Below, in pieces: positions 21,908-26,474 of a stretch of DNA of 64,000 nt. Under the pieces are notes generated by a model, which worked only from the letters and a program-made list of their open reading frames with translations, was not told where the DNA came from and ran no database searches. The stretch lies in NCBI GenBank assembly GCA_900315805.1, contig ONAN01000001.1:124001-188000 (forward strand), written 5' to 3'. Position numbers and translations under genes: made by a program. The DNA is from an uncultured Selenomonadales bacterium (GTDB taxonomy: Bacteria > Bacillota > Negativicutes > Acidaminococcales > Acidaminococcaceae). Each line of letters opens with the position of its first letter. The stretch's first letter is position 1.

Positions 21908-24900
21908 TCAGAACAGGGACATCTGGTTCGTTTCCGGCAAGTCGCCCAGGGCCCCCAGGGCGTTCAGCGCGTCCAGGGCGGTCTGGCCCACATGGCCCAG
22001 ATTCCGTTCCTCGTCCGTCAGCGGCAGGCCCTGCAGCGCTTTCTCGTGAACAGCGCTTTCCACCTTGCTGCAGCGGGACAGCAGGTCCTCCATGGACAAG
22101 AAGGGCTGGTCTTTTTCCCTGGCTTCTTTCGCCGTCAGGGCCAGTGTACAGCCCACGCCGTCCCCTACACCGGGCAGGGCCGACAAGGGGATGCGTACAC
22201 CCTTCACGCCGTCCTCTTCGGTCGGAATGAACCGGTGTCCGTGGGATTTGTACAGGTCGATATTGAAGAAACGGAAGCCGCGGGCCAGCATTTCCAGGAT
22301 CAGCTGCAGGTAGATGACGTTCGTCTTGGCGACGGGCGACGCCTGGAACCCCTGGGCGTCCACGTTCTTGATATACTGGCGGATATATTCCTCGCCTTTG
22401 TAGATGAAGTTGGCATCCACGTCGGCGCGCTGCGTGAAATAGGCCGCGTAGTAGGCCGTCGGATAATGGACTTTGCAGTAGGCGATGCGGTAGGCGTTCA
22501 ATACGTACGCCACGGCATGGGCCTTCGGGAACAGGTACTGCACGGTTTCGCAGCTCTTCATGTACCACTCGGGCACGCCGGCCTTTTCCATGGCTTCGCG
22601 CATCTGGGGCTCCAGGCCCTTTTTGGCGGCCTTGCCCTTGCGCACGTATTCCATGGTCTTGAAGGCCAGGGTCGGGTCGACGCCGCGGGCGATGAGGCTC
22701 GTCATGACGTCGTCACGGGTGGAAATGGTCTGCTCCACCGGCCGGTGGTCGCGCTGAATCAGGTCCTTGGCGTTGCCCAGCCATACGCCCGTGCCATGGG
22801 AATAACCGGATATGCGTACGATATCGCTGAACAATTTCGGCTTCAAATCGGAAATCATGCCCAGCGTGAAGGTCGTGCCGCATTCGGGAATGCCCAGGGT
22901 ACCCACGTTCGTGCCGATCTGTTCGGGCGTGACGCCCAGTACTTCCGTACCGGAGAACAGGGCCATCGTTTCCGGGTCGTTGATGGGGATCTTCGTCGGG
23001 TCGATGCCCGTGAATTCCTGCAGGCGCTTGATCATGGTCGGGTCCACGTGGCCCAGGATATCCAGCTTGACCAGGCGGTCATTGATGGAATGGTAATCGA
23101 AATGGGTCGTGATGATGTCGCTGGTCTTGTCGTCGGCTGGATGGTTCATGCCCGTAAAGTAATGGATGTCCATATCGCGGGGAATGACCATGATGCCGGC
23201 CGGGTGCTGGCCCGTGCCGCGTTTGACGCCGTTCAGGCCTTCGGCGAACTTGCTGATGAAGGCCGGATGGACCGGGAAGTTCTTGTCCTCGAAATATTTG
23301 CGGGCATAACTCCAGGCCGTCTTCGGAGCCACCGTCGTGATGGTGCCGGCGCGGCACACGTTGTCGCGGCCGAAGAGTTCTTCCGTGTATTTGTGGGCCG
23401 AATGCTGGTATTCATCGGAGAAGTTGAGGTCGATATCGGGCACTTTGTCGCCGTGCAGGCCCATGAAGACCGCAAAGGGGATGTTGTGTCCGTCGCGGAC
23501 CATTTCCGTACCGCATTCGGGGCACATCTTCACCGGCATATCGAAGCCAGAGGCGTATTCGTTGTTCGTGAAGAATTCCGTGTGACGGCACTTGGGGCAC
23601 CGGTAATGGGGCACCAGCGGGTTGACTTCCGTAATGTCCGTCATGCAGGCCACGAAGGACGAGCCGACGGAACCACGGGAACCGACGATGTAGCCGTCGT
23701 CCATGGAATGTTTGACCAGTTTGTGGGCGATATCGTACAGCACGGCGTACCCGTGGTTGATGATGGCGTCCAGTTCCATATGCAGGCGGTCTTCCACAAT
23801 CTTGGGCAGCGGGTCGCCGTAGAGGCGGTGCGCCTTTTCGTAGCTCAGGTCGTGGATTTCCTGTTCCGCGCCCGGCAGGGCCGGCGAATAAAGCTGGTCC
23901 GTGTCCGGGACGGGTTTCATGGATTCACACTGGTCGGCAATCTTGTTCGGGTTCGTGATGCAGATTTCTTCGGCCGTTTCCGGGTCGAAATAGGAGAATT
24001 CCCGGAGCATCTCTTCCGTCGTGCGGTAGTAGAGCGGCGCCTGGAATTCGGCGTCCTTGTAACCCTGGCTGTGCTGCAGGATTTCGCGGGTCCTGGCGTC
24101 TTCCGGATTCAGGAAGTGGACGTCGCAGGTGGCGCAGCACAGTTTGCCCAGTTTCTGTGCCAGCTCGTAGACCTTCTTGTTCATGGCCATGAGCTCTTCC
24201 TGGGTGAACACTTTCTGGCGCGTCAGGAAGGCGTTGTTGCCTAAGGGCTGGATTTCCAGGTAATCGTAGAACTTCGCGATTTCCAGGACCTCGTCCTCGG
24301 TCATTTCCTTCTTGAAGAGCTTCTCCACCGCGCGGTACACTTCGCCGGCTTCGCAGGCCGAACCAATGAGGATGCCTTCGCGGAATTCCGAGAGAACGTC
24401 GCGGGGAATCATGGGACGCGTGCGGCTGCCGTTGCCGTTCAGGTAGTTGAGGTGCGACAGGGAGATGAGTTTATACAGGTTGCGCAGGCCAATCTTGTTT
24501 TTGGCAATCAGGATGATGTGATGGGACCTGATCTTGCCCGCATGGGGCAGGCCCTCTTTCAGGATATCCCCTTCTTCGGGCGTGATCAGGTAGCCTTCGC
24601 AGCCCAGGAGGAGCTTGATATCCCCCTTGATTTCTTCCAGGGCCTTGGTGCAGAAGGGGAAGGCCTGCACGACGCCATGGTCCGTGATGGCGATGGCCTT
24701 GTGCCCGAAGCGGATGGCCGTCTCCAGCAGTGCCGTGATGTCCGTGATGGCGTCGAGCTTGCTCATCTTCGTATGGCAATGGAGCTCCACGCGCTTGACG
24801 GGGGCCTTGTCTTCGCGGACGGCCTTTTCGTCCGGGAGTATGCGGATGGCCGAGGCCAGGATGGTCATGGCATCGTGGTTGAAGCGGTCCGGTTCCGCTT

Positions 24901-25753
24901 TCCCCTGGACCTGGCAGCGGACGCCTTTTTTCAGGTGCTTTTCCACGTCACGGCATTCTTCGGCGCTGTCGAACATCACTTTGACATAGACGCCGTCCTG
25001 GTCGTCCGCCAGGCTGAAGAGCAGCAGGAACTTGTTGTTCCGCAGTTCTTTTTCCGTATAGGCTTCGAATTTGGTGCCGTCCTTATTGAGGGCGCCGACC
25101 AGACAGCCTTCAACGACGACGCTCTTTTCCGCCTCCTTGAGCGTGTTCATGGGACGGACGGAGCCGCGGATGTGGCGGCCCAGCAGATACCCGTCGGAGT
25201 GTTTGTCCCCGTAAAGGGCTTCATAGGCGTGGCGGTACGCCTCGTCCTCCATGGGGTCTTTCTTCGTTTTGGCGGGCGCGGGGGCCTGCGGGACGGCTGC
25301 CGGCGCGGCGGGTGCCGCGGCAGCAGACGCTGCGGGGGCTTCGGCGGGCATGCCGTTGAGCAGGGTCTCTTCCCCGCCGGCAGAATCCGGGGACGGCATA
25401 CAGGCTTCCGGCGGCAGGGGGATTTCCTCTGCCGGCGGAGCGGCAGGGACATCGTGCTTTGCGGCCCGCGGGGCCGTGTTCCCCGTCCGGGTCTTGACGT
25501 CGAGGCGGTTCCAGCGGATTTCCGTCATGCCCAGCTGCTGCTGCAGCGCGTCGGCAATGAGGCCGAGCAGATCCTCGCCCGGATCGCAGGGGGCGTTGTA
25601 GTCAATCTGCCAGGCGTTCTGCAGGCTGGCGGCCCACAGTTTGTGAACCCGGAGGACTTTGCTTTTCAGTTTCTGTTCAGAAGAAAGAGACAGTGAATTC
25701 ACAAATTTACCGAACTCACTGTCGTCAATATCAATATAGAAATCAGGTTTCAT
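21908..25753 (-). CDS. polC: PolC-type DNA polymerase III alpha subunit lacking the DEDDh exonuclease
   Basis: This is the replicative polymerase. At 1281 residues it is shorter than typical PolC (about 1440). Order: N-terminal domain (1-90), an Ala/Pro linker (about 95-165), OB domain (about 190-310), PHP domain (about 320-550), then palm, thumb and fingers. Catalytic Asp are D773 and D775 (VPDIDLNF) and D898 (LDILGH); the zinc site is C719, C722, C744, C747. The C-terminus NQMSLF is a beta-clamp motif. The DEDDh exonuclease normally inserted in the PHP domain is absent: E386 and H411/H412 are only 25 residues apart. All nine PHP metal ligands look present (H325, H327, D334, H359, E386, H411 or H412, C467, D544, H546). 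Confidence 0.97.
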   Translation of the reverse strand: MKPDFYIDIDDSEFGKFVNSLSLSSEQKLKSKVLRVHKLWAASLQNAWQIDYNAPCDPGEDLLGLIADALQQQLGMTEIRWNRLDVKTRTGNTAPRAAKHDVPAAPPAEEIPLPPEACMPSPDSAGGEETLLNGMPAEAPAASAAAAPAAPAAVPQAPAPAKTKKDPMEDEAYRHAYEALYGDKHSDGYLLGRHIRGSVRPMNTLKEAEKSVVVEGCLVGALNKDGTKFEAYTEKELRNNKFLLLFSLADDQDGVYVKVMFDSAEECRDVEKHLKKGVRCQVQGKAEPDRFNHDAMTILASAIRILPDEKAVREDKAPVKRVELHCHTKMSKLDAITDITALLETAIRFGHKAIAITDHGVVQAFPFCTKALEEIKGDIKLLLGCEGYLITPEEGDILKEGLPHAGKIRSHHIILIAKNKIGLRNLYKLISLSHLNYLNGNGSRTRPMIPRDVLSEFREGILIGSACEAGEVYRAVEKLFKKEMTEDEVLEIAKFYDYLEIQPLGNNAFLTRQKVFTQEELMAMNKKVYELAQKLGKLCCATCDVHFLNPEDARTREILQHSQGYKDAEFQAPLYYRTTEEMLREFSYFDPETAEEICITNPNKIADQCESMKPVPDTDQLYSPALPGAEQEIHDLSYEKAHRLYGDPLPKIVEDRLHMELDAIINHGYAVLYDIAHKLVKHSMDDGYIVGSRGSVGSSFVACMTDITEVNPLVPHYRCPKCRHTEFFTNNEYASGFDMPVKMCPECGTEMVRDGHNIPFAVFMGLHGDKVPDIDLNFSDEYQHSAHKYTEELFGRDNVCRAGTITTVAPKTAWSYARKYFEDKNFPVHPAFISKFAEGLNGVKRGTGQHPAGIMVIPRDMDIHYFTGMNHPADDKTSDIITTHFDYHSINDRLVKLDILGHVDPTMIKRLQEFTGIDPTKIPINDPETMALFSGTEVLGVTPEQIGTNVGTLGIPECGTTFTLGMISDLKPKLFSDIVRISGYSHGTGVWLGNAKDLIQRDHRPVEQTISTRDDVMTSLIARGVDPTLAFKTMEYVRKGKAAKKGLEPQMREAMEKAGVPEWYMKSCETVQYLFPKAHAVAYVLNAYRIAYCKVHYPTAYYAAYFTQRADVDANFIYKGEEYIRQYIKNVDAQGFQASPVAKTNVIYLQLILEMLARGFRFFNIDLYKSHGHRFIPTEEDGVKGVRIPLSALPGVGDGVGCTLALTAKEAREKDQPFLSMEDLLSRCSKVESAVHEKALQGLPLTDEERNLGHVGQTALDALNALGALGDLPETNQMSLF

Positions 25754-25757
25754 GGGT

Positions 25758-26474
25758 TTATCCTACGTTCTCGATGGTCAGGATTCCGTCAATCTGCTGA
25801 ATCCCCATGGTGATGCTGCCGGCGTCCTGTTCCGGGCCGAATTTCAGGTAGAGCTCCAGAACGATCTGCTTCTTCGAAGCATTGTTCTTCACGTTGATCG
25901 TCTTGACTTTCACGCCGCTTTCGGTCAGGTAGTTCGTGACGCTCGTAATGAGGCCGGGATTGTTGACGGCCGTAATGCGGATGAATTTACGGTCCGGCAT
26001 GCGGCCTGCGTTGAAGCGCTTTTCCCAATTATGGAACGTGATCAGCGTGACCATCGTCACGACGGTGGCCACGATGCTGATGAAATACATGCCGGCACCC
26101 GTCGCCAGGCCGATGGCGGAGACCATCCACAGGCTGGCCGCCGTGGTCAGGCCGCGTACGGTCAGGCCTTCGTGCAGGATCGTGCCGGCACCGAGGAATC
26201 CGATGCCGCTCACGACCTGGGCCGCAATACGGGCAGAGTCACGGTTGCGGGGATACTCGAACGGTACCTGGTCGAACCCGTCGAACCCGTACAGCGAAAC
26301 GAGCATGAGCAGGGCCGAACCGGCGCATACCAGGATGTGCGTACGGAACCCGGCGGGGCGGTCGCCGCTGCCGCGTTCCATGCCGACGATGCCGCCGAGG
26401 ATGGCGGACAGGATCAGGCGGATCAGCATTTCAAACTGTATGGAGTTGAGGAATTGGTTCAACCAGACTTCCAT
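25758..26474 (-). CDS. MgtC/SapB family membrane protein
   Basis: A 238-residue protein with an N-terminal multi-pass membrane domain carrying LRLILSAILGGIVGMERGSG-like MgtC sequence (RLILSAILGG, GMERGSGDRPAGFRTHILV) and GIGFLGAGTI, and a C-terminal ACT-like cytoplasmic domain (about 155-238). Characterised MgtC proteins act in low-magnesium survival and can inhibit F-ATPase; a role here is not shown. It ends 4 bases before polC and follows proS by 29 bases, an unusual place for this gene. Confidence 0.92.
   Translation of the reverse strand: MEVWLNQFLNSIQFEMLIRLILSAILGGIVGMERGSGDRPAGFRTHILVCAGSALLMLVSLYGFDGFDQVPFEYPRNRDSARIAAQVVSGIGFLGAGTILHEGLTVRGLTTAASLWMVSAIGLATGAGMYFISIVATVVTMVTLITFHNWEKRFNAGRMPDRKFIRITAVNNPGLITSVTNYLTESGVKVKTINVKNNASKKQIVLELYLKFGPEQDAGSITMGIQQIDGILTIENVG

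Follow-up and report, generated by a model that had tools for sequence, protein, structure and literature searches.

Textbooks present PolC as a replicase that carries its own DEDDh proofreader. This exonuclease (Exo) is inserted in the loop that lines the groove of the PHP domain (PMC5636811). Timinskas & Venclovas (PMC3919608) described PolCs without Exo, exclusively from Clostridia and Negativicutes save for one extra copy in Thermotogae; all were paired with DnaE1, and they accounted for 6% of all PolCs and for 16% of the PolC+DnaE1 systems. In a 2026 census (PMC12926913), motif-based classification placed the nine-ligand PHP domains of PolC and of DnaE1 from most Clostridia among the “active” ones. 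In Mycobacterium tuberculosis (Mtb) DnaE1, the substitutions D23N and D226N abolish PHP exonuclease activity, albeit in mutants that are also less stable, and no exonuclease activity is seen in Geobacillus kaustophilus PolC, in which one ligand differs (PMC5636811); the PHP domain of Escherichia coli has a structural role (PMC3666897). Because exo-less PolC was published in 2013/14 (PMC3919608), the core of our finding was already known, contrary to the novelty implied by the original prediction, and the protein examined here is a new member of a described class.

The PolC gene in the window (the whole 64-kb stretch of DNA that was analysed) occupies positions 21908-25753 on the minus strand, begins with ATG and encodes 1281 amino acids. 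Its product exceeds the NCBIfam PolC cut-offs (NF001688, 1278 bits against 873; TIGR01405, 1181 against 1043), and it aligns over residues 199-1228 to G. kaustophilus PolC (3f2b; 989 bits) with identical domain order. We take residues 201-315 to be the OB domain, a name from the known PolC layout, and the C-terminal QMSLF to be a beta-clamp-binding-like motif. The surrounding genes read cdsA-dxr-rseP-ispG-proS-(mgtC)-polC-rimP-nusA-ylxR ... infB, the usual order in Bacillota; the location between proS (with the MgtC-family gene) and rimP-nusA therefore identifies the gene as orthologous polC. The intervening MgtC-family gene (25758-26474, minus strand) has an ACT-like C-terminus, and the rest of the block is conserved. 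The closest named records come from uncultured Selenomonadales (class Negativicutes) assembled as rumen MAGs, and separate assemblies encode the same exo-less architecture at 89% (L035) and 78% (L034) identity. Purifying selection is strong in the Pol core (dN/dS 0.034) and in the PHP domain (0.086 against the close relative L035), whereas residues 1-200 are poorly conserved (0.29 against L035). As one part of an explanation that we consider rather probable as a whole, this is a normal, vertically inherited Negativicutes PolC.

The original prediction held that this PolC lacks the classical exonuclease and reads straight through the PHP domain, and both points were borne out. Pfam PHP (PF02811) matches residues 323-502 without a break, a 25-residue loop occupies the Exo site of other PolCs, and a Pfam search of the full protein found no PF00929 exonuclease. 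Neither Pfam nor NCBIfam identified a divergent Exo in another part of the protein, and that possibility was rejected. As PolCs across the class lack Exo too, its presence is not a strict criterion for calling a protein PolC. AlphaFold modelled residues 313-714 with a pLDDT of 89.6, and the model matched PolC 9qpc (Z 41.6), Thermus aquaticus (Taq) DnaE1 3e0d (32.2) and Mtb DnaE1 5lew (30.9); the PHP fold is thus predicted to be complete without Exo.

Table 1. Features of the PolC gene, in window coordinates.
Feature	Position	Strand	Residues	Basis
N-terminal region	25154..25753	-	1-200	placed by position, PolC layout of PMC3919608
OB-domain region	24809..25153	-	201-315	3f2b alignment begins at residue 199
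PHP domain, unbroken	23894..24796	-	about 320-620	PF02811 and AlphaFold model
PHP ligands H325 and H327 (HCH)	24773..24781	-		sequence alignment
PHP ligand D334	24752..24754	-		sequence alignment
PHP ligand H359	24677..24679	-		sequence alignment
PHP ligand E386	24596..24598	-		sequence alignment
25-residue loop, Exo site of other PolCs	24521..24595	-	387-411	
PHP ligand H412 (not H411)	24518..24520	-		conservation across exo-less PolCs
PHP ligand C467	24353..24355	-		sequence alignment
PHP ligand D544 (Asn in 3f2b and 9qpc)	24122..24124	-		sequence alignment
PHP ligand H546	24116..24118	-		sequence alignment
Palm catalytic motif PDIDLNF	23420..23440	-	772-778	
C-terminal QMSLF	21911..21925	-	1277-1281	read from sequence

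We aligned 148 PolCs and split them by insert length into 106 exo-less sequences and 42 with 198-217 residues, one of which (L140) carries a decayed Exo. The window PolC has the nine-ligand pattern HHDHEH[C/H]DH of the Mtb/Thermus DnaE1-type PHP exonuclease. All nine ligand equivalents lie where they had been predicted, and the choice left between H411 and H412 falls to H412, which is invariant in 105 exo-less PolCs (position 411 is Y, N, H or F). HHDHEHCDH is found in all 106 exo-less sequences, in which all nine ligands belong to the 33 invariant columns found across 301 PHP columns. The spacing between E386 and H412, 25 residues in the window PolC, is 5-39 in 105 of the 106; exo-less L111 has 84 low-complexity residues at the Exo site.

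The original prediction also gave Asn at the D544 position of B. subtilis PolC, and the solved structures 3f2b and 9qpc do read ATGNVH against ATCDVH in the window PolC. As a mark of Exo loss, however, this residue fails. Among 41 PolCs with intact Exo, 33 have all nine ligands and 8 have Asn at D544, and 28 additional PolCs from the class to which genome G080 belongs, all Exo-bearing, have Asp (19) or Asn (9). Asn occurs only among Exo-bearing PolCs (17/69), most of which (52/69) have Asp, so Asp at D544 does not indicate Exo loss; nor are the nine ligands a response to that loss, since most Exo-bearing PolCs also retain the full set. Exo loss as a predictor of PHP intactness was rejected for the same reason, as Exo-bearing PolCs within Clostridia also have nine ligands. 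The sole contrast by Exo state is the Asn of some Bacilli-type PolCs, which probably represents few independent events.

A survey of the lineage for the deletion, set beforehand, covered 61 genomes from the same genus, family, order or class, counting only PolCs with a one-piece PHP region; every readable Negativicutes PolC aligned straight across the Exo site. None of the PF00929 matches listed for 150 Negativicutes genomes lay in a PolC-sized frame. With the exo-less architecture class-wide, a strain-level deletion or an assembly error was rejected; its recurrence in the separate assemblies of L035 and L034 and the low PHP dN/dS likewise speak against a sequencing artefact. We drew 249 genomes from across the Bacillota and counted by hand about 101 exo-less and about 72 Exo-bearing PolCs (about 173 PolC genomes; the remainder had DnaE-level matches only or split contigs), so that, at the level of species genomes, exo-less PolC is much more frequent than the 6% in PMC3919608. 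A survey of PolC inhibitors (PMC11963600) retained as PolC only sequences with the RNaseT insert, a definition that omits the exo-less half of PolCs.

Exo state requires 9-11 changes on trees built without the insert, and at least five of these changes are forced by well-supported branches. A single group of all exo-less PolCs was rejected by the AU test on a quick LG+G4 tree with long branches left out (p-AU 3.5e-5; 0.025 without the pair from genus g131). The insertion site is identical in all Exo bearers of the 148-PolC alignment. In a DnaE-rooted tree, the window clade nests with Exo-bearing lineages (support 95). These results indicate that the exo-less state arose repeatedly by loss.

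Genus g131 of family f42 offers a closer view. The DxETT motif is intact in 13 family members and not in the three species of this genus. Two of them, G187 (L140) and G365 (L241), have a decayed Exo of 198 residues within PolC, reading VVLALATTGS and VVLALGTTGV where relatives read VVVDIETTG, and the third, G157 (L121), has 39 residues in place of Exo; all three species retain intact PHP ligands. In this genus, Exo appears first to have decayed and later to have vanished, with PHP remaining intact, as if the loss had been caught under way. The predicted loss of the classical exonuclease from a PolC with a complete PHP site is thus upheld, with the nine ligands in place, decay in g131 and a one-time origin of exo-less PolC rejected.

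Several genomes also appear to have no other DnaQ-type exonuclease. PF00929 had no match in 11 of 150 Negativicutes genomes (completeness at least 95%) or in 8 of 41 genomes with an exo-less or dead-Exo PolC. A DEDDh profile search (E ≤ 1) returned nothing in G018, G027, G042, G072, G076, G157 and G218, and in G187 and G365 it matched only the decayed remnant inside PolC; three controls gave strong matches (1e-24 to 1e-62). These nine genomes without a detectable intact DEDDh gene are 89-100% complete (PF00929 was run on eight, the profile on all nine), and the DnaE1 PHP ligands are complete in eight of them, that of G365 not being readable.

Repeated Exo loss, nine ligands in 106/106 exo-less PolCs and nine genomes without a detectable intact DnaQ-type exonuclease together make proofreading in cis by PHP, perhaps with the PHP of DnaE1, after the lineage lost its DEDDh Exo, the best explanation and, in our judgement, a fairly probable one. 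The lineage would have lost the Exo that most described PolCs carry inside PHP, leaving PHP whole, with all nine ligands of a putative trinuclear metal site like the one by which Mtb DnaE1 proofreads. Once a wrong nucleotide had been incorporated, the 3' end of the primer would melt off the palm site and follow the groove, which the 387-411 loop borders, to the PHP site, whose metal centre would cut off the terminal nucleotide; the PHP site of the cell's DnaE1 possibly proofreads as well. We infer metal binding, exonuclease activity and proofreading use of the exo-less PolC PHP from sequence, and the papers searched report neither activity nor bound metal for an exo-less PolC. Counting against PHP proofreading, ligand conservation is also compatible with a structural role, and the source genome has a DEDDh gene.

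The source genome, that of a gut bacterium, has two replicases, PolC and a DnaE1 that the original prediction overlooked and whose PHP also has nine ligands. DnaE1 could be the main replicase, leaving exo-less PolC secondary or specialised, with little or no need for proofreading and a structural PHP; PolC may then need no proofreading of its own. Each of the exo-less genomes tested has a DnaE1 relative, and nearly all of these relatives have nine ligands; many Bacillota genomes of the draw lack PolC and have weak DnaE-level matches only (best E about 1e-25 to 1e-38), and PMC3919608 raised the possibility that PolC is accessory to DnaE1. However, PolC is under the strong purifying selection described above and retains both its clamp motif and its position within the conserved proS-polC-rimP-nusA block, and its nine PHP ligands are universal among exo-less sequences, whereas unused PHP sites decay in many polymerases (PMC12926913); we therefore regard a secondary role as unlikely. 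Some DnaE copies have altered PHP ligands: L292 (G155) reads HHNHEHCNH, L293 (G132) HHDHEHCNH, and the readable part of L294 (G076) HEHCNH. L293 and L294 are extra copies beside DnaE1s with ligands intact where readable (L289, nine; L287, seven of nine readable).

The alternative offered in the original prediction, that a separate DnaQ-like protein of the DEDDh type proofreads in trans, is quite unlikely. The source genome has one PF00929 gene, encoding a stand-alone 245-aa DEDDh protein on another contig (G000:C38:1430-1906; locus L001:1244-1981), so a trans proofreader may act there. This protein is intact at the DEDDh positions (A1 invariants D5, E7, D90, H147 and D152), lies just above the NCBIfam dnaq-family cut-off (72.3 against 71.5) and has a PolC-type Exo (2p1j) as its best PDB match, and the five other genus members tested have PF00929 proteins of similar size. 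The gene is common to the genus but not to the family, as G018 and G027 of the same family have none, and inspection by eye found no clamp-binding motif in the protein. The PF00929 proteins in other genomes differ in kind (about 190 aa, or a DinG-sized 860-1000 aa). The prediction may apply to the source genome but fails as the general answer, because nine exo-less or dead-Exo genomes lack a detectable intact DEDDh gene. One genome with an exo-less PolC, G140, encodes a stand-alone 205-aa DEDDh protein (L195) nearest to PolC Exo domains (2.4e-40), which may be an Exo relocated from PolC or a comparable proofreader acting in trans.

Ancestral absence of Exo, with later insertion in other PolC lineages, is very unlikely given the rejected single grouping, the forced changes, the shared insertion site, the g131 remnants and the nested window clade, although the base of the DnaE1-rooted tree carries both Exo states, so that rooting does not settle the ancestral state and absence could still apply to some basal lineages.

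PHP proofreading may extend across Bacillota: PolC Exo would have been discarded many times, leaving the fidelity of PolC and DnaE1 wholly to PHP metal sites, including in lineages without a DnaQ-type exonuclease, a tentative generalisation that we place slightly short of evenly balanced. Genera with a decaying Exo and an intact PHP, and DEDDh-free genomes, are natural experiments that make PolC PHP proofreading directly testable.

Among known systems, the window PolC differs in nothing essential from the exo-less PolCs of PMC3919608, which it resembles in architecture, taxon, co-occurrence with DnaE1 and conserved PHP metal site; new relative to that work are the decay intermediates, the formal test of repeated loss and the DEDDh-free genomes. 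With the PolCs of 3f2b (G. kaustophilus) and 9qpc it shares the PolC core, PHP fold, palm motif and domain order, but those proteins have a DEDDh Exo in the PHP loop (removed for crystallisation in 3f2b) and Asn at D544. Mtb DnaE1 (5lew, PMC5636811) has the same nine-residue trinuclear site and an unbroken loop (29 residues, against 25 here); however, it is a DnaE-type enzyme, about 25% identical over PHP-palm, whose activity has been demonstrated, whereas that of the window PolC is putative.
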